Shown: positions 7,336-31,286 of the stretch, piece by piece
Layout of the letters: each line of letters begins with the position of its first letter
Numbering within the stretch: the stretch's first letter is position 1
Source: a virus
DNA: 41,439 bases
Strand: one strand, 5' to 3'
Virus record (IMG/VR): IMGVR_UViG_3300021964_000160
Location: 1-41,439 of that record
Position numbers and translations under genes: made by a program
Notes under the pieces: model-generated
Seen by the model: the letters and a program-made list of their open reading frames with translations, nothing else
What the model was told of the DNA's origin: nothing
The model's database searches: none

Positions 7336-7542
7336 ATGACAACCCCGAACTGGCAGCACCATTCCAAGAAGGATAAGAAACGGACTCTCAAACCACAAGC
7401 GATGAGAGCACGGAAGGAAGCACTCAGACAGTTTAAGAACCGGTACATGAACCCGTCCAAGAGACGGGTTTCGTCGTATTATGAGTCCATACGAACGAAC
7501 ACCAATGACTGTTTCCCACGAGATCAAGTCGCAACTTGCTAA
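7336..7542 (+). CDS. Small basic conserved-type protein before the CobT-like gene
   Basis: A 68-residue, strongly basic protein (KKDKKRTLKPQAMRARKEALRQFKNRYM) predicted to be helical in the middle. It starts 10 nt after gp46 and overlaps the following large gene by 62 nt in another frame. No family is recognised. The basic helix could bind nucleic acid. The last 20 residues may exist only because of the overlap. It is supported by coding density and position rather than by homology. Confidence 0.5.
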   Translation: MTTPNWQHHSKKDKKRTLKPQAMRARKEALRQFKNRYMNPSKRRVSSYYESIRTNTNDCFPRDQVATC

Positions 7543-9649
7543 ACTGCTTGCTACCGAAGACCTGGTTGTGGAGAACAAGAATGTAGAGACTGCATGTTTC
7601 AATGTTCATACCCGTGTCTTGACCCTGCCCAATTGGAAGAATGCAACTCCTGTTGTCTATGACCTTCTGGTTGGACATGAAGTAGGACATGCTCTTTATA
7701 CTCCTAATATTGATTGGATTGTAGACCGTAATATTCCCCCACAGTTTGTGAACGTTGTAGAAGATGTTCGCATTGAGAAACTGATGAAGCGTCGATATCC
7801 TGGAATCTCTAAGTCATTTTGGAAAGGATATGAAGAATTAAGTGATGATGATTTTTTCCAGATTAAAAATGAAGATCTGACTTCGATTAATCTGGCAGAT
7901 AAAATCAATATTCATTACAAGATTGGTAAATTTGTTGATGTTCCCTTTGAGAACGATCAAGAGAAAGATCTTATGAAGAGATCTGGTGAGACTGAGACCT
8001 TTGAGGAAGTATTGGATATTGCAGAAGAAATTTACAAGTATTGTCTGGACAAGAAAGAGCAGGAAAGTAAAATTAATTTCGACAATCACGGCACACAGGG
8101 TGCATCTGGCGGTGAAGAAGGTGAGGGTGAAGAGGAGCAAGAGCAAGAATATTCTGCGAGTGGAGACGATTCTGAATCATCTGGTTCTGATGAGAGTGAA
8201 GACGGTGAGATGCCTGATATCAATGATCAGCAGCAGGGTATGTCTGGTGGAGAAACTTCTGTTCCTGATGTAAAGACCATGAGCGCATTTGATGATGCTG
8301 TTCGTGAGAATCTACTGGATCAGGATGCTCGTGATAATGTATATGTAGAACTTCCTGAGTTGGATCTTAAACAGATTATTATCCCGAACTCTAAGATTCA
8401 TCAGTTGTGTGAAGAACAGTGGTCGGAAGAATCTACACCACTGATGTTCTTTCAATATGTTGATGAGGCATTTAACAAGTTTAAGCGTAGTGCCCAGAAA
8501 GAAGTCAACTATCTGGTGAAGGAGTTTGAGTGCCGTAAGTCTGCTGCTGCATATGCTCGTGCGTCAACTTCTAAGACAGGAGTTCTTGACTGCACCAAAC
8601 TTCATACATACAAATACAATGAAGACCTTTTCAAAAAGGTCACAACATTTGCTGATGGTAAGAATCACGGTCTGGTATTTGTACTTGATTGGTCTGGTTC
8701 AATGGGCAATGTTATGCTTGATACTATGAAGCAACTCTTCAACCTTGTATGGTTTTGTAAAAAAGTTGGTATTCCTTTCGATGTCTATGCATTTACTAAC
8801 GACTATCCTCGTGACGACGGGATGGGTATTGCTGAATTATCCTACGAAAAGAAAGATGGACTAGTTCGAGTTGGCGAGTCTTTTTCAATGCTGCACTTTC
8901 TCACAAGTAAAGTTAAAGGGAAAGAACTAGAACAGCAGATTCTCCACATGTTCCGTATGGGATATCACTTCAGTTCTAATTGGGGAGTACCATATACCAT
9001 TCCTGTGGGATTATATCTTTCTGGAACTCCTCTCAATGAGGCACTGATTACTTTGAAGCAAATCATCCCTCAATTTAAGTCACAAAATAATTTAGAGAAA
9101 GTTCAATGTGTAATCCTGACCGATGGTGAAGCACCTCCTCTCAAGTATCATAAAGAGTTTCTTGGTCGAAAAGTATACGACACAGAACCATATCTCGGAG
9201 TCAATAGTCTTAATGGAGATTCATTTATCCGTGATCGCAAAACCGGACACACATACTCTATGATGCAAGACTGGAATGACCAGTCAAGATTCAGTCATAC
9301 TGGTGCGATGCTTAAACTTCTCCGTAATCGTATGCCTTCAGTCAACTTTATTGGTATTCGTGTTCTTGCTACTCGTGATGCAAACTGCTTCATCCGTCAA
9401 CATGTACCAAACTTTAATGATTATGCTAAGATTCAACGTCAATGGAAAAAAGACAAGTCCTTTACTCTTACCGAGTCTGGGTATCATAAGTATTTCGGAT
9501 TATCTGCTAGTGCTATGAATCAGGACACAGATTTTGAAGTCAAAGAAGATGCTACAAAAACACAGATTAAGACTGCTTTTGTTAAGAGTTTGAGAACTAA
9601 AAAAATGAATAAAAAAGTTTTAGGTGAGTTTATTGAACTCATTGCATAA
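7481..9649 (+). CDS. CobT-like protein: zinc metallopeptidase motif plus VWA domain
   Basis: A 722-residue protein with three parts. The N-terminal part carries a zinc-protease motif HEVGH at residues 66-70 and a likely third ligand in NVVEDVRIE (91-99). An acidic, low-complexity linker (about 205-260, rich in Glu, Ser, Gly) follows. A VWA domain begins near residue 397 with the metal-binding motif VLDWSGSMGN (D403-x-S-G-S). This layout resembles VWA partners of MoxR-type AAA+ ATPases, such as CobT with CobS, and cobS is two genes downstream. In CobNST chelatase CobT helps insert cobalt, but no CobN is seen here and the HExxH motif suggests proteolysis or chaperone work on another target. ATG 7481 is used; ATG 7505 is an alternative. 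Confidence 0.8.
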   Translation: MSPYERTPMTVSHEIKSQLAKLLATEDLVVENKNVETACFNVHTRVLTLPNWKNATPVVYDLLVGHEVGHALYTPNIDWIVDRNIPPQFVNVVEDVRIEKLMKRRYPGISKSFWKGYEELSDDDFFQIKNEDLTSINLADKINIHYKIGKFVDVPFENDQEKDLMKRSGETETFEEVLDIAEEIYKYCLDKKEQESKINFDNHGTQGASGGEEGEGEEEQEQEYSASGDDSESSGSDESEDGEMPDINDQQQGMSGGETSVPDVKTMSAFDDAVRENLLDQDARDNVYVELPELDLKQIIIPNSKIHQLCEEQWSEESTPLMFFQYVDEAFNKFKRSAQKEVNYLVKEFECRKSAAAYARASTSKTGVLDCTKLHTYKYNEDLFKKVTTFADGKNHGLVFVLDWSGSMGNVMLDTMKQLFNLVWFCKKVGIPFDVYAFTNDYPRDDGMGIAELSYEKKDGLVRVGESFSMLHFLTSKVKGKELEQQILHMFRMGYHFSSNWGVPYTIPVGLYLSGTPLNEALITLKQIIPQFKSQNNLEKVQCVILTDGEAPPLKYHKEFLGRKVYDTEPYLGVNSLNGDSFIRDRKTGHTYSMMQDWNDQSRFSHTGAMLKLLRNRMPSVNFIGIRVLATRDANCFIRQHVPNFNDYAKIQRQWKKDKSFTLTESGYHKYFGLSASAMNQDTDFEVKEDATKTQIKTAFVKSLRTKKMNKKVLGEFIELIA

Positions 9650-9652
9650 ATA
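9645..9652 (+). promoter_or_regulatory. T4-late-like promoter box CATAAATA
   Basis: CATAAATA matches TATAAATA at seven of eight bases. It overlaps the stop of the CobT-like gene and lies 25 nt before the next ATG, the usual distance for late boxes in this window. Confidence 0.5.
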
Positions 9653-9676
9653 TTTAAAACCTCATCATTTAAATCT

Positions 9677-9916
9677 ATGTCTAAATTCGGAGATTTAGTT
9701 AAGGGAAAAAAAGGAGCACCAGCACCTGCTGCTCAAGCACCAGCACCTGCTGCTCCTACCCCTCCTGCCCCTGTAGCAGCACCTACTCCTGTCGCTAAAA
9801 CAATGGGTGATATGTCTAAAATTGAACTTGAGGAACTTGGTCGCACCAAAGGTATCGAACTTGACCGCCGTAAGAGCAAGTCGAAACTTATCAAGGAACT
9901 CAAGGACATTGGGTGA
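9677..9916 (+). CDS. Ala/Pro-rich adaptor with C-terminal HeH/SAP-like helix pair
   Basis: A 79-residue protein. The N-terminus is short and basic (MSKFGDLVKGKKG), residues 14-41 are an Ala/Pro linker with repeated APAP units, and the last 35 residues (KIELEELGRTKGIELDRRK then SKSKLIKELKDIG) match the helix-extended-helix pattern of HeH, LEM and SAP domains. Those domains bind DNA or hold protein complexes together. It sits between the CobT-like gene and cobS, has a late-type box in front and a strong terminator behind, so it may be made separately from them. Confidence 0.75.
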   Translation: MSKFGDLVKGKKGAPAPAAQAPAPAAPTPPAPVAAPTPVAKTMGDMSKIELEELGRTKGIELDRRKSKSKLIKELKDIG

Positions 9917-9939
9917 ACCAATCTTACAACTGTCTGAAT

Positions 9940-9962
9940 GGGGGTCATAAGACCCCCTTTTT
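9940..9962 (+). terminator. Rho-independent terminator before cobS
   Basis: GGGGGTC (9940-9946) and GACCCCC (9951-9957) form a perfect 7 bp stem with a 4-base loop ATAA, followed by five T. It ends the transcript of the HeH-like gene. Confidence 0.92.
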
Positions 9963-10002
9963 GGTCTATAATAACTTCAGTTGAAACAAAGCACACAACA
10001 TC

Positions 10003-11094
10003 ATGTCTCTCTCTTCCGAGTACATTCGCACTTCACTTCAATCCATGTATGGCGAGTCTGTCACCAGTGGCGATATTCGAGCATGGTGTGCAATGAATGG
10101 TGCTAATTATCAAACCGTTTCTAAAAAAATTGATGAATATAAAACTGGTCGTGGAAAATGGAATTTGAGTGTGCCTGAACAACTTGAGCAGACCTACCAG
10201 GCACCCCCTGCTATGCCTGCTGTCGAACAAAATCTAATTCCTGCAAAAGATGATACTTTCGTCAAGTTTGGTAACTTTGGTGATCTTAAAAAGATTATTC
10301 AATCCCGTCTATTCTACCCAACGTTTATTACTGGACTATCTGGAAATGGTAAAACCCTCTCGGTTGAGCAAGCATGTGCTCAATTGGGTAGAGAACTTAT
10401 TCGTGTAAACATTACTATTGAAACTGATGAAGATGATCTTATTGGCGGTTTCCGTCTTATTAATGGTGAAACCGTCTGGCACAATGGCCCAGTCATTGAA
10501 GCACTCCAACGAGGATCTGTCCTGCTCCTTGATGAGATCGACCTTGCCTCTAATAAAATTCTCTGTCTCCAGTCTATCCTTGAAGGAAATGGAGTCTTTC
10601 TCAAAAAAATTGGACAGTTTATCCGACCCAGTGCAGGTTTCAACGTCATCGCAACCGCAAACACTAAAGGTAAAGGTTCAGACGATGGACGATTCATTGG
10701 AACTAACGTGCTCAACGAAGCATTCCTTGAGCGATTCCCAGTAACCTTTGAGCAGTATTATCCTGCCCCTGCGACTGAACAGAAGATTCTGGAAGGCATT
10801 GCTCTGGATCTTGGTGTGGAAGATCGCGACTTCTGCAAGCGTCTGGTGGACTGGGCAGATATTATCCGTAAGACCTTCTACGATGGTGGTATTGAGGAAA
10901 TCATCAGCACCCGCCGTCTAGTGCATATTATTCGTGCCTATAGCATCTTTGATAATAAAGCAAAGGCAATTGATGTTTGTACCGCACGATTTGATGATGA
11001 AACCAAGCAAGCATTCCTTGAACTATATGACAAAGTTGATGTTGACTTTGTGATGCCTTCCGAAGATACCATTGACACATTTACCGCTGAATGA
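10003..11094 (+). CDS. cobS: CobS-like MoxR-family AAA+ ATPase
   Basis: A 363-residue AAA+ protein. Walker A is GLSGNGKT at about residues 109-116, Walker B is VLLLDEIDLAS (near 172-182), sensor 1 lies in NVIATANTKG, and NEAFLERFPVTFEQYYP carries the arginine finger region. The N-terminal 60 residues resemble the small domain of CobS (DIRAWCAMNGANYQTVSKKI). cobS is near-universal in T4-like cyanophages and is usually described as the cobaltochelatase ATPase subunit for vitamin B12 synthesis, although no CobN subunit is seen here. TATAAT at 9967-9972 may be a -10, but no -35 fits because the terminator occupies that place. Confidence 0.88.
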   Translation: MSLSSEYIRTSLQSMYGESVTSGDIRAWCAMNGANYQTVSKKIDEYKTGRGKWNLSVPEQLEQTYQAPPAMPAVEQNLIPAKDDTFVKFGNFGDLKKIIQSRLFYPTFITGLSGNGKTLSVEQACAQLGRELIRVNITIETDEDDLIGGFRLINGETVWHNGPVIEALQRGSVLLLDEIDLASNKILCLQSILEGNGVFLKKIGQFIRPSAGFNVIATANTKGKGSDDGRFIGTNVLNEAFLERFPVTFEQYYPAPATEQKILEGIALDLGVEDRDFCKRLVDWADIIRKTFYDGGIEEIISTRRLVHIIRAYSIFDNKAKAIDVCTARFDDETKQAFLELYDKVDVDFVMPSEDTIDTFTAE

Positions 11095-11100
11095 TATAAT
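11072..11100 (+). promoter_or_regulatory. Consensus sigma70-like promoter in the end of cobS
   Basis: TTGACA (11072-11077), 17 nt, TATAAT (11095-11100): a perfect match to the bacterial housekeeping consensus. It lies across the cobS stop and would start RNA near 11107, leading into the DUF3310-like gene, gp45 and the clamp loader. Confidence 0.85.
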
Positions 11101-12241: not shown

Positions 12242-12433
12242 ATGAGGATAATAGGCAGTGGTCTTGTGATCCTTGCCTATTTTATTATTCTCCATGTGAA
12301 TACAACTGTAGGTGTCGCTCTCCAAATGATTGGAGATAGTATATCGATTCCTTACTTTATACGGACAAAATCCTGGGATGTTGTTACTATGATATCATTC
12401 CTATTAGTGATTTCCCTAACACATTTATTATGA
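12242..12433 (+). CDS. Small two-helix membrane protein
   Basis: A 63-residue hydrophobic protein of unknown function. Residues 4-22 (IGSGLVILAYFIILHVNTT) and about 45-62 (WDVVTMISFLLVISLTHL) are predicted membrane segments, with IGDSISIPYFIRTKSW between them. ATG 12242 follows the gp45 stop by 7 nt. Its stop overlaps the next start by 4 nt. It could be one of the small membrane proteins phages use to alter the host membrane, but nothing more specific can be said. Confidence 0.65.
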   Translation: MRIIGSGLVILAYFIILHVNTTVGVALQMIGDSISIPYFIRTKSWDVVTMISFLLVISLTHLL

Positions 12434-12942
12434 ACATTTTCGTCACAAACGAATCCCCATGGAAGTCTGCAGAGATTCTACCTGACAAGCACATCGTCAA
12501 GATGCCTCTGGAGACGTGTCAGATGCTTGCTATCGTTGCATCAGACAAGTGGGGTCATGGTTATGGTACTTTGCCTAAGGCAGACGGCACACCCTATGCT
12601 ACAGAGAAGGGAGCGTTCCGTAATCACCCCTGCACTAAGTGGGCAAACGAGACTATAGAAAACACTAGATGGTTGCTTGCTCACGGTATAGCATTATGTG
12701 AAGAGTATTTTAATCGATATGGTAAATGCCATACTTGCTTTAAAACTCTCCTTGTTGCTGATGAGATCATTCCTTATGTGAAATGGGATGACCACACTCC
12801 TTTTGTCTTTGCAGGACCTGACGAGTATAAGTATGATACAAGCATTGATATCTTCACTGCTTACAAGATGTATATTGCATCTAAACCTTGGGTATGCGAT
12901 AATTACCTTCGTCTCCCCCACCGTAAACCTGACTGGATTTGA
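12430..12942 (+). CDS. Phage protein with pyrimidine-dimer-glycosylase-like pattern
   Basis: A 170-residue protein of a family common in phages. Recognisable parts are MNIFVTNESPWKSAEIL, PDKHIVKMPLETCQMLAIV, then HPCTKWANETIENTRWLLAHG and ALCEEYFNRYGKCHTCFKT. From memory, relatives starting with a similar D-K-H-V-V-K-M-I-L-E stretch are sometimes annotated as pyrimidine dimer DNA glycosylases, because of a faint resemblance to T4 endonuclease V. That would fit UV repair in a phage of sunlit water, but is not proven. It lies between gp45 and gp44 with overlapping ends. Confidence 0.7.
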   Translation: MNIFVTNESPWKSAEILPDKHIVKMPLETCQMLAIVASDKWGHGYGTLPKADGTPYATEKGAFRNHPCTKWANETIENTRWLLAHGIALCEEYFNRYGKCHTCFKTLLVADEIIPYVKWDDHTPFVFAGPDEYKYDTSIDIFTAYKMYIASKPWVCDNYLRLPHRKPDWI

Positions 12943-16986: not shown

Positions 16987-17040
16987 ATATCGTCGTCGCA
17001 GAGGACAACTGGCAAAATCCAGTAAGTCCTCTATTTTTTT
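16987..17040 (+). ncRNA. Hairpin leader element 1 (small RNA, attenuator or terminator)
   Basis: Conserved block ATATCGTCGTCGCAGA (16987-17002), then a two-part stem: GAGGAC (17001-17006) with GTCCTC (17026-17031) outside, ACTGG with CCAGT inside, loop CAAAAT, then T7 (17034-17040). A sister element lies at 18288. Because the late box is upstream of the T-run, this could yield a small RNA of about 55 nt, or an attenuated leader for glyA; it would also end transcripts from the microproteins. Confidence 0.75.
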
Positions 17041-17050
17041 GGAGATTATT

Positions 17051-18280
17051 ATGAGTTTACAAGTCAACGATTCATTAGTTCAGGGATTTATTCAAAAAGA
17101 ATTAGAGAGACAACAGAATCATCTAGAGATGATTGCTAGTGAGAACTTTACGTCTCTTGATGTGATGGAAGCTCAGGGTTCAATTCTTACTAATAAGTAT
17201 GCAGAAGGATTGCCTGGTAAAAGATACTATGGTGGATGCGAATGGGTTGACCAGATTGAAGATCTAGCAAGGGAAAGAGTAAAAAAACTATTCAATGCAA
17301 AGTGGGCAAATGTTCAACCTCATAGTGGAGCACAAGCAAATGCTGCTGTATTCCTTGCTCTTTTGAAACCAGGAGATACTGTTCTATCTCTTGATCTATC
17401 CCACGGAGGTCATCTATCCCATGGATCAAAAGTTAATATGTCTGGTAAGTGGTTCAATGTTTGCCACTATGAAGTTGATGAGACTGGTAGACTGGACTAT
17501 GATAGAATATTAGAACTTGCAAGAGAATGTAAACCACAACTTATCATCTGTGGATTCTCTGCATACACTAGAACGATTGATTTTAGTAAGTTTAGAGATA
17601 TTGCTGATGAAGTTGGATCATACCTATTAGCGGACATTGCACACATTGCAGGATTGGTTGCATCAGGTGTTCATCCATCACCAATTCCATATGCAGATGT
17701 AGTTACCACAACAACTCATAAGACTCTGAGAGGTCCGAGAGGTGGGTTGATTATGTCTAATGACGTGGAGATGGGTAAGAGGTTGGACAAGGCAGTATTT
17801 CCAGGAACTCAGGGTGGTCCATTGGAACATGTGATTGCTGCTAAAGCAGTTGCATTTGGTGAGGCACTTAAACCAGAATTCAGAGAATATTGTCTTCAAG
17901 TTGTTGCTAATGCAAAATCTCTTGGTCGTAGATTAATTGAAAGTGGTATCAATATTGTGTCTGGTGGAACAGATAATCATATTGTTTTACTTGATTTGAG
18001 AAGTCTAGGAATCACAGGTAAGTTTGCTGATCAACTTGTGAGTGAAATTAATATCACTGCGAACAAAAATACAGTTCCTTTTGATCCTGAGTCTCCCTTT
18101 GTTACTAGTGGATTACGTTTAGGCACTGCTGCTCTCACTACCAGAGGGTTTGATGAAAACGACTTTGTTGAAGTTGCTGATATTATCGCAAGTCGTTTAA
18201 ACAATTATGAGGAAGATGGTAATAAAGAAGAGTGTTTGGTGAGAGTATCTAAACTTTGTGCAGGTAATCCTCTCTACTAA
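17051..18280 (+). CDS. glyA: Serine hydroxymethyltransferase GlyA
   Basis: A 409-residue PLP enzyme that converts serine and tetrahydrofolate to glycine and 5,10-methylene-tetrahydrofolate. Family motifs are intact: [74 protein letters not shown] and [16 protein letters not shown] with the PLP lysine near residue 223. [16 protein letters not shown] closes the C-terminal domain. The length is normal for bacterial GlyA (about 415). ATG 17051 has GGAG 7 nt upstream (TTGGAGATTATT) and is preferred to an in-frame TTG at 17039, which sits in the T-run. As a cyanophage auxiliary metabolic gene it could supply one-carbon units for nucleotide synthesis beside nrdA/nrdB. Confidence 0.96.
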
Positions 18281-26778: not shown

Positions 26779-28038
26779 ATGAAAAAGTTCAGTCAGTTCC
26801 TTTCCGAAGCAGGTGAGATGACTGTATCTGCTCAAGCCAGAAAAATGGGTTTGAAAGGAGACGGACATGGTGGATGGTATGATCAACAGGGTAACTTTAA
26901 AGCAAAAACTATTGAAGGTAAATTAAAAGTTTTTTCTGGACGTGAGGCAAAGGCAGAAGAAGATAAGCAAAAGAAAAAGAAAGCAGCAGCAGATAATGTA
27001 AGAAGTGCTGCTAAGACTCCTGCTGCAACTCCAGCACAAAAGCAACAACCAGTTGCACAGCAGAAATCAGCACAAGCAACTCAAGCAGCACCTGAAGAAG
27101 AGGAAGGTGAAGCACTAGAATCTACTGGTGCTGTGATTGTATTCGGTCGTTTTAATCCTCCTACAATTGGACATGAGAAACTGTTGAAAGCAGCAGCAAC
27201 TCAGGCAAAGAGAGATGATGCAGATTTAGCAATCTATCCTAGTAGAACTCAGGATAAGAAAAAGAATCCACTTGATCCTAAGACCAAGATTGGATTTATG
27301 AAATCGATGTTCCCGGATTATGAGGAGAATATCTTTGACGATAATAATGCAAAGACTATCTTTGATGTTCTGTCTTCTAAGTATGCAGCCGGATATAAGA
27401 GTGTAACCATCATGGTTGGTCAAGATCGTCTTGCAGAATTCCAAGGTCTTGCTCAGAAGTATAATGGGTCTGACTTATATGCCTTTGATGAAATTAAAGT
27501 TGTTTCTGCTGGTGCCCGTGACCCAGATGCCGATGACGTATCAGGAATGTCTGCATCTAAACTGAGAGCACATGCTGCAGAGGATGATTTTAATTCATTC
27601 TCTAAGGGTGTTCCTAACAAGATGACTGTCATCCAGAAGAAAGAGATGTTCAATGCTGTTCGTAAGTCAATGAATATCAAAGAAGAACTGTGGCAGATTG
27701 CTCCTAAGTTTGATCCTGAATCATTACGTGAGTCATATGTAAAAGGAAAGATTTTCAGAATCGGTGATATTGTAGAGAATTTAAATACTGGACTGGTTGG
27801 ACAAGTCAATCGTCGTGGAACCAACTATATTATCTGTGTAACAGAAGACGGTATTATGTTCAAATCTTGGTTGAGGGATATCAAGGAGTATTCTGAAGTC
27901 AAGATGGATAAACTGATGAGAGATAAGAAGCATCCAAATACTCTTGTAGGAACTGCTGGATTCTTAAAGTATGTTTCACGTATGACTCCAGGTTCAATGC
28001 TCAATAAACGCTACGTTGTAAAGGTGGGAAAGAAGTAA
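26779..28038 (+). CDS. Nucleotidyltransferase-domain protein with capsid-targeting-like N-terminus
   Basis: A 419-residue protein. MKKFSQFLSEAGEM is the capsid-targeting-like start, with L-S-E fitting the prohead protease rule. A Lys/Ala/Gln-rich linker runs to about residue 110. The central domain is a cytidylyltransferase/NMN adenylyltransferase fold: VIVFGRFNPPTIGHEKL carries the nucleotide-binding TIGH (129-132), and SGMSASKLR (about 255-263) is the usual second motif (ISAS-like). The last 90 residues include a beta-rich KOW-like segment, IGDIVENLNTGLVGQVNRRG. Similar proteins in marine phages are annotated cytidylyltransferase. The substrate is unknown. A late box precedes it. Packaging in the head is inference from the N-terminus. 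Confidence 0.82.
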   Translation: MKKFSQFLSEAGEMTVSAQARKMGLKGDGHGGWYDQQGNFKAKTIEGKLKVFSGREAKAEEDKQKKKKAAADNVRSAAKTPAATPAQKQQPVAQQKSAQATQAAPEEEEGEALESTGAVIVFGRFNPPTIGHEKLLKAAATQAKRDDADLAIYPSRTQDKKKNPLDPKTKIGFMKSMFPDYEENIFDDNNAKTIFDVLSSKYAAGYKSVTIMVGQDRLAEFQGLAQKYNGSDLYAFDEIKVVSAGARDPDADDVSGMSASKLRAHAAEDDFNSFSKGVPNKMTVIQKKEMFNAVRKSMNIKEELWQIAPKFDPESLRESYVKGKIFRIGDIVENLNTGLVGQVNRRGTNYIICVTEDGIMFKSWLRDIKEYSEVKMDKLMRDKKHPNTLVGTAGFLKYVSRMTPGSMLNKRYVVKVGKK

Positions 28039-30294: not shown

Positions 30295-30981
30295 ATGGAT
30301 ACCGAGATTGTAAAACTGAGATTATACCAAGGACTATCGGAGGATCTACGTAAGTGGTTCAAAGATGGTGGTTGGGACAGATACAACACCAAAGGTGAGA
30401 AAGTGGGCAAGTGTGCTCGCGATGATAAGGATGGTGATGGAAAGGCAGATGGTCCCAAACCAAAATGTCTTCCTGCATCCAAAGCAGCAAGTCTCGGTAA
30501 AAAGAAGGTTGCAACAGCAGTCAAAAGAAAACGATCAGAAGACCCTAATCCGAATAGAACAGGAGCAGCAAAGAACGTGAAAACAGAATCTGCAGAAACT
30601 ATTACATTCCAACAGTTCAATGAGAAAGCACAGAAGTGCTGGGACACTCATAAGAAAGTCGGAATGAAAATGAAGGGAGGTAAGTTAGTTAATGATTGTC
30701 GCCCTAAGAATGAAGAAATTGAAGTTGAGGAAGGAGCAGCATGGACAAAAAAGTCCGGTAAGTCAGAGTCAGGTGGTCTCAATGAAAAAGGACGTAAGTC
30801 TTATGAAAGAGAGAATCCTGGTTCTGATCTGAAAGCACCTTCTAAGAAAGTTGGTAACAAGAGAAGAGCATCATTCTGTGCAAGGATGAAAGGTATGAAG
30901 AAAAAACTCACTTCTGCCAAAACTGCTAGAGACCCTGATAGCAGAATTAATAAGTCACTTAGAGCTTGGAATTGTAACTGA
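30295..30981 (+). CDS. Mosaic of short Cys-containing marine-phage modules
   Basis: A 228-residue basic protein made of three modules. Residues 14-66 have GLSEDLRKWFKDGGWDRYNT, then GKCARDDKDGDGKADGPKPK with a D-x-D-G-D loop. Residues 102-136 have FQQFNEKAQKCWDTHKKVGM then KLVNDCRPKN. Residues 146-228 have AAWTKKSGKSESGGLNEKGR, YERENPGSDLKAPSKK, RRASFCARMKGMKKKLTSAK and ARDPDSRINKSLRAWNC. The first and last modules occur together or alone in many marine phage proteins; the last resembles DUF6321 from memory. All contain paired Cys with Trp, as in small metal-binding folds. Function unknown. It follows the 28241 gene after 5 nt. Confidence 0.7.
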   Translation: MDTEIVKLRLYQGLSEDLRKWFKDGGWDRYNTKGEKVGKCARDDKDGDGKADGPKPKCLPASKAASLGKKKVATAVKRKRSEDPNPNRTGAAKNVKTESAETITFQQFNEKAQKCWDTHKKVGMKMKGGKLVNDCRPKNEEIEVEEGAAWTKKSGKSESGGLNEKGRKSYERENPGSDLKAPSKKVGNKRRASFCARMKGMKKKLTSAKTARDPDSRINKSLRAWNCN

Positions 30982-31286
30982 TGAAAAACTTTAATCAATT
31001 CATGTCAGAGTCTGTCAATATCTCTGGCGACTTCAACGGAACTCTTAATATGGGATCCCCCGAACCAGAGCAGGAAAAGGAGTCATTCACTGCTGATATT
31101 GTCTGGGAAGGAAAGATTTATCGTCTTGAAATCGAAGGTGGTATGATGAGTAAGAATGAATTATCAGAACAATTGCAAGGTGAGTATCCTGGTGCAATTG
31201 TCCAGAACGTTTATCCTGCTTCTGCACCATCTAAAGTTAAAAGCGCACAAAGATATCGACCAGAAAGGTTAGGTTGGACTGACTAA
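30981..31286 (+). CDS. 101-residue protein with capsid-targeting-like N-terminus
   Basis: MKNFNQFMSESVNISGDFNG opens the protein, matching the shared M-K-x-F-x-x-F-x-x-E pattern. A small beta-rich domain (ADIVWEGKIYRLEIEGGM) follows, then ELSEQLQGEYPGAIVQNVYP and a basic tail. It starts at the preceding stop and overlaps the next start by one base. Probably a small head protein; no other clue. Confidence 0.7.
   Translation: MKNFNQFMSESVNISGDFNGTLNMGSPEPEQEKESFTADIVWEGKIYRLEIEGGMMSKNELSEQLQGEYPGAIVQNVYPASAPSKVKSAQRYRPERLGWTD

Follow-up and report, generated by a model that had tools for sequence, protein, structure and literature searches.

We analysed a 41,439-base virus sequence from a T4-like cyanophage (IMG/VR record IMGVR_UViG_3300021964_000160; "the window" below means this whole stretch), in which a gene for a metallopeptidase-like/VWA protein (VWA gene) is paired with a cobS-like gene for an AAA+ ATPase. 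We favour, with moderate confidence, the reading that the two products form a NorQ/NorD-like MoxR AAA+/VWA remodelling machine, which has an intact zincin domain, plays its role early or mid infection at a DNA-linked target, and does not serve vitamin B12 synthesis. A sequence-only reading of this DNA had described three genes, namely one for a protein with a zinc motif, an acidic linker and a VWA domain, one for a small protein, and AAA+ cobS. All three are present as open reading frames of 722 residues (7481–9649), 79 residues (9677–9916) and 363 residues (10003–11094), and the zinc and VWA-domain motifs of the first are invariant in 47 aligned relatives. The gene order around the pair is UvsW, gp55, gp47, a small open reading frame, gp46, the VWA protein, the small protein, CobS, a DUF3310 protein, gp45, a pyrimidine-dimer glycosylase and gp44. 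The pair itself is already published and its novelty is modest: Iyer et al. 2021 (PMC7824862) had described the metallopeptidase-VWA fusion and its pairing, Liu et al. 2021 (PMC8651126) had reported the cobST cluster, and Sullivan et al. 2010 had placed cobS among the core genes of cyanophages. New are the link between the zincin and CobT, a plan of three transcription units and the recurrent linkage to replication genes; no earlier statement of a link between the zincin and the CobT N-domain, or of the late-cassette site described below, was found in the open-access papers searched.

The VWA protein matched the PHROG_459 profile over nearly its full length (E 4.3e-257, residues 11–722 of the 722-residue frame). 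Because all relatives begin with M-[TPAS]-V-x-HEIKSQLAK, translation most likely starts at position 7505 rather than 7481, giving 714 residues. In this numbering, the N-domain (about residues 1–190) contains HEVGH (58–62) and NVVEDVRIE (83–91), and is followed by a disordered acidic linker (about 190–260), a conserved segment (331–385), a VWA domain from about residue 386 with DWSGSM at 395–400, and a hydrophobic C-tail. H58, E59, H62, N83, E86, D87, R89 and E91 were invariant in the 47 aligned relatives, as were D395, S397, S399, T508 and D540, the complete DxSxS, T and D set of a metal ion-dependent adhesion site (MIDAS). Given this invariance, the HExxH and MIDAS motifs are no chance occurrence. 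The two N-domain motifs together make up the zincin signature HExxH...E, and both lie on helices in the AlphaFold2 model. Residues 331–380 were 66% invariant, compared with 28% for the whole protein, and residues 350–385 were modelled with low confidence. NorD has a finger that sits as a plug in the pore of NorQ; a single strand connects this finger to the MIDAS, and NorD attaches to the ring through its last residues (PMC9976466, PMC13036017). Since the layout matches that of NorD, we read the conserved segment ahead of the VWA domain as a putative finger. The best PDB fold match of the model was also NorD (E 2e-4; mean predicted local distance difference test score [pLDDT] 67), and a PDB sequence search with the VWA profile gave no match.

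The ATPase matched the PHROG_249 profile over nearly its full length (E 8e-134) and has the features of a MoxR-type protein, with an AAA_5 domain, the two Walker motifs (A and B), sensor 1, an arginine finger and sensor 2; the strings ATAN, ERF and STRR are present. PDB CobS was matched with an E value of 1e-20, and the CobS model TIGR01650 gave 69 bits against an equivalog cut-off of 558.55. The best PDB fold match of the ATPase model was NorQ (E 9e-11; pLDDT 60), which we take as supporting only. With NorQ and NorD as fold matches, the low CobS score and no match of the VWA protein to the CobT models, the earlier proposal that the pair is a MoxR/VWA machine and no B12 enzyme gained support. 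The N-domain of the ATPase (10003–10180) varies by lineage: it has a confident H-strand-H-H-strand-strand fold in cyanophages, and in SSU5-type phages it resembles a ROS/MucR zinc finger at E values of 0.004–0.1, below the cut-off. This domain may be a nucleic-acid tether.

The zinc motif had been regarded as an unusual addition, a view that its distribution contradicts. HExxH was present in 88 of the 88 related loci, far from being absent in most relatives, and the 28-residue gap to E-D-x-R-x-E was kept in 85 of them; Mosig has EDTRID and Ochrobactrum OC has EDVRID at the equivalent place. The motif was also found in most of the more distant phage CobT-like proteins, including those of Salmonella SSU5, JSF23, Stenotrophomonas DLP6, Rhizobium N1_15, Roseobacter CRP-810, Gordonia GMA3, Gordonia Harambe and Tsukamurella TIN2; Vibrio and Ochrobactrum phages are among the carriers. 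SSU5 bridges the phage and CobT groups: it matched both CobT Pfam models (PF06213/PF11775; E 2e-37 and 2.5e-112), which ZY21 and JSF23 matched in part. Profile alignment of the cyanophage N-domain with the SSU5/Rhizobium group placed HEVGH on HEVGH (96% probability), and alignment of the N-domain of that group with classical cellular CobT placed HEVGH on DSMAL and ED on EQ (89%). Direct profile comparison of the cyanophage N-domain with cellular CobT failed (1%), and the link runs via the intermediate phages only; the Gordonia/Tsukamurella N-domains gave no profile alignment despite their HExxH. At this place HExxH was absent from every classical CobT examined and present in two atypical gammaproteobacterial CobT-like proteins (L149 and L151); an HExxH string in a third locus (L148) lies elsewhere. 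These alignments indicate that the N-domain of the VWA protein is homologous to that of CobT, and the survey as a whole shows HExxH to be the norm in CobT-like proteins of phages. The motif was probably lost in classical CobT. Liu et al. (PMC8651126) wrote of "CobT mistakenly annotated as peptidase"; because the zinc motif is usual in the phage proteins, the label "peptidase" is not simply a mistake. Among the control genomes, that of Caulobacter vibrioides gave a match to PF06213 (CobT) and none to PF02514 (CobN), so that CobT-type proteins without CobN occur in a cell too.

The two genes are also linked across genomes. Record counts in the phage collection were identical for the two proteins, each being present in 365 records of Synechococcus, 61 of Cyanophage and 24 of Prochlorococcus (compared by count), which bears out the linkage of the VWA gene and cobS. 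gp45 was found in 376 Synechococcus records, about 11 of which appear to lack both members of the pair (by count, not record by record), in keeping with the reported lack of cobS in marine cluster C T4-like cyanophages (PMC10665884). In T4-like cyanophages the pair lies inside the replication/recombination module (gp47-gp46-pair-gp45-gp44), and a DNA polymerase, ligase or helicase gene is near the pair in SSU5, ZY21, JSF23, Rhizobium N1_15, ANB28 and DLP6. The window pair belongs to the same families as the core cyanophage pair PHROG_459/PHROG_249 and, like it, stands in this order between gp46 and gp45; the close tblastn matches of its VWA protein were less than 60% identical.

Upstream sequences point to three transcription units (Table 1), in which the VWA gene and cobS would have host-sigma-type (TATAAT) promoters and the small gene a late one. 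A TATAAT-like hexamer precedes the VWA gene in 73/79 relatives, mostly with a hairpin ahead of it. Upstream of cobS, TATAAT was found in 69 and a TATAAT-like hexamer in 75 of the 81 relatives, often with the leader AACTTCAGTTGAAA. The T4-type late box ATAAATA stood 27–34 nt before the small gene in 46/47 relatives, compared with 1.5 expected from shuffles (the sequences are related). Late boxes were present around the VWA gene start in 2/87 relatives and upstream of cobS in 0/81. Coding does not explain the box, which is missing from relatives that have no insert yet share the same terminal amino acids. Its frequency in the window is uninformative by itself (10 found, 10.5 expected), and its conservation at this spot confirms the late box proposed earlier for the small gene. 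The DUF3310 gene, in addition, is preceded by a perfect TTGACA-17-TATAAT promoter that lies where cobS ends (11072–11100).

Table 1 Features of the VWA gene–cobS region in the window.
Feature	Position	Strand	Basis
Terminator-like hairpin after gp46, CCCGTC-CAAGA-GACGGG-TTT	7452–7471	+	read from sequence
TATTAT, −10-like hexamer of VWA gene	7477–7482	+	recurrence in relatives
Metallopeptidase-like/VWA protein, 714 residues, PHROG_459 "peptidase"	7505–9649	+	profile match; start codon from relatives
HEVGH, predicted zinc-binding helix motif	7676–7690	+	H, E, H invariant; in helix 49–65 of model
NVVEDVRIE, E86 likely third zinc ligand	7751–7777	+	spacing kept; in helix 79–97 of model
Finger-like segment just before VWA domain	8537–8659	+	conservation; finger-strand-MIDAS order as in NorD
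MIDAS DWSGS of VWA domain	8687–8701	+	conservation among relatives
Hydrophobic C-terminal tail, conserved; may dock on the ATPase	9545–9646	+	44% invariant; NorD analogy
T4-type late promoter box ATAAATA	9646–9652	+	conserved before small gene
Small late protein ("adaptor" of the sequence-only reading): M-S-K-F-x-D-L motif, Pro/Ala-rich linker, HeH-like tail	9677–9916	+	
Intrinsic terminator GGGGGTC-ATAA-GACCCCC-TTTTT	9940–9962	+	in 67/81 relatives
TATAAT plus leader of cobS	9967–9986 (leader 9973–9986)	+	recurrence in relatives
CobS-like MoxR-type AAA+ ATPase, 363 residues, PHROG_249 "porphyrin biosynthesis"	10003–11094	+	profile matches, motifs, fold match

From the domains, conserved sites, linkage and promoter types read in the sequence, we infer contact between the two proteins, gripping, cleavage, timing and target as follows. 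The ATPase would form a ring whose pore is plugged by the finger before the VWA domain, with the C-terminal tail docked on the ring. The MIDAS of the VWA domain would grip an acidic patch of the target, and ATP hydrolysis would strain it. The N-domain is predicted to be an intact zincin-type domain, most likely a metalloprotease or a zinc-dependent domain by which the target under strain would be cleaved or conditioned. Because both genes have host-sigma-type promoters and lie inside the replication/recombination module, the machine probably works in the early or middle phase of infection, with a DNA-linked protein of phage or host as its target. In a stronger form, which seems possible to us but rather doubtful, phage "CobT" would be an ATP-driven metalloprotease in which the MoxR ring strains a VWA-held target and the zincin cuts it, and the CobT N-domain of B12 synthesis would descend from this protease, or be related to it, and have lost the activity.

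Among known systems, NorQ/NorD gave the best fold match for both proteins and shares the order of N-domain, linker, finger and VWA domain and the conserved C-tail; it differs in that descriptions of NorD include no zinc site and in that its target is nitric oxide reductase. Iyer et al. 2021 describe the same domain fusion, metallopeptidase with VWA, and the same ATPase partner, MoxR, in group 2.2 jumbo phages. CobS/CobT is alike in its AAA+ family and in the remote homology of both CobT domains, whereas the window pair falls below the model cut-offs and retains the HExxH lost in classical CobT. Several observations weigh against the remodelling machine. HExxH is lost in ZY21 and Stenotrophomonas ANB28, so that the site is not essential in every lineage, and Gordonia/Tsukamurella and Roseobacter phages show only a weak link between the pair and replication genes. 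Both models leave room for doubt: that of the VWA protein is of modest confidence with only the VWA part covered by the fold matches, and the AAA+ core of the ATPase is poorly modelled, its fold match covering the AAA+ part only. Promoter class, too, was assigned from sequence.

Three other functions were weighed. Virion assembly, in which the pair would be an assembly chaperone and its peptidase would process structural proteins, was proposed by Iyer et al. 2021 (PMC7824862) by analogy with the MoxR/VWA system of Acidianus two-tailed virus, whose ORF892 was a weak fold match (rank 39). Replication or host takeover is favoured over this proposal because of the replication-gene context and the early/middle-type promoters, sigma-70-type rather than late. 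Marine cluster C T4-like cyanophages, moreover, lack cobS (PMC10665884) and build T4-like virions all the same, and the text on the S-SCSM1 virion proteome names neither protein (PMC9602691). We regard virion assembly as unlikely. A metal-insertion machine would use the zinc-type site, with no proteolysis, to carry or gate a metal destined for a metalloenzyme of the phage such as NrdB with its dimetal site. This would agree with the characterised relatives NorQD and CobST, which act in metal insertion (PMC13036017), and with NrdB being encoded in the same window. HExxH...E is, however, a hydrolase signature and NorD is described without such a site, which makes this improbable in our judgement.

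The B12 explanation has been advanced by Liu et al. 2021 (PMC8651126) and in earlier cyanophage papers, and holds that viral CobS/CobT join host CobN to boost cobalamin synthesis. It can draw on the CobS matches of the AAA+ protein, on the remote CobT homology via other phages and on a CobN/ChlH-family protein in Synechococcus elongatus. The 69 bits, however, are far below the TIGR01650 cut-off, the window VWA protein has no PF06213/PF11775 match, and HExxH is kept in it and missing from classical CobT. The phage NrdA/NrdB, encoded in the same window, are a class Ia, B12-independent ribonucleotide reductase. PF02514 (CobN) was matched in only 5 of 14 control genomes; it had no match in the window, but this is a 41-kb fragment, and a host CobN could serve. 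E. coli, Vibrio cholerae and SAR11, which are hosts of phages with such pairs, are not known to produce B12 by way of CobN, and this too counts against the explanation. We consider a role in cobalamin synthesis the least probable of the three.

As to the small protein, which had been taken for a HeH/SAP-like adaptor of the machine, the HeH-like tail was seen in 18 of 42 distinct relatives, but no Pfam HeH/SAP match and no SAP/HeH structure was found by sequence. A sequence search against phages gave no match, and PHROG matches were weak, e.g. to endonuclease VII and a prohead protease inhibitor. Of the 42, 41 have the motif M-S-[RK]-F-x-[DE]-L-hydrophobic at the N-terminus. Next come a linker rich in Pro, Ala and Glu and a tail that varies, being HeH-like in the 18 and short and basic or DRDGDG in others. 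A part in the machine was rejected: the gene has its own late promoter, is separated from cobS by a terminator, and is missing from S-PM2 and many relatives. It appears to be a neighbour, a separate late gene that is no part of the machine. Because of the conserved N-terminus, changing tails and late control, an internal head protein would fit, as a lead only. A clamp-binding peptide was also considered for the M-S-R-F-x-D-L motif; the window DNA polymerase ends in TLESFFS, and T4 clamp clients have short hydrophobic or acidic ends.

Because the late box also precedes other inserted genes in 16 loci without the small gene, the interval between the VWA gene and cobS is an insertion site for late cassettes. 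Some of these inserts (L055, L078, L082, L042–L044, L038 and L064) start with MKTFQEFMIE, MKTFQDFMIE or MKTFRQFV, and we take the first two to resemble the T4 capsid targeting sequence. T4 internal proteins have only a conserved targeting sequence in common (PMC3012670), and the cassettes are perhaps head-internal genes. Elsewhere in the window, starts like this targeting sequence were seen in a cytidyltransferase-like protein (26779–28038, PHROG_395; MKKFSQFLSEA) and in small proteins at 572–814 (MRSFDNFIEEA), with a late box at 559–565, and at 30981–31286 (MKNFNQFMSES). NMNAT/cytidylyltransferases have been found in cyanophage virions (PMC9602691), a presence that the MKKFSQFLSEA N-terminus could explain.

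Position 7336, at which the sequence-only reading began the region, instead belongs to a separate small basic open reading frame (7336–7542) that overlaps the start of the VWA gene and matches PHROG_3309 (E 2e-16) over its first 36 residues only. The pyrimidine-dimer glycosylase-like gene lies at 12430–12942 between gp45 and gp44; in P-SSM2 (L085, 4044–4574), the gap separating the VWA gene from the small gene holds one for a similar protein (MNIFVTN...). The window also encodes a serine hydroxymethyltransferase (17039–18280; PF00464, E 4e-170).

Both genes of the pair occur in nearly all marine T4-like cyanophages, and ecology papers count both as vitamin B12 genes. If the pair is a remodelling protease in replication or host takeover, many counts of "cobalamin auxiliary metabolic genes" would be wrong. 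The regulatory plan indicates that the position of the small gene next to the pair is no sign of a function in common, and the link between the zincin and CobT would provide a testable origin for a subunit of a B12 enzyme.

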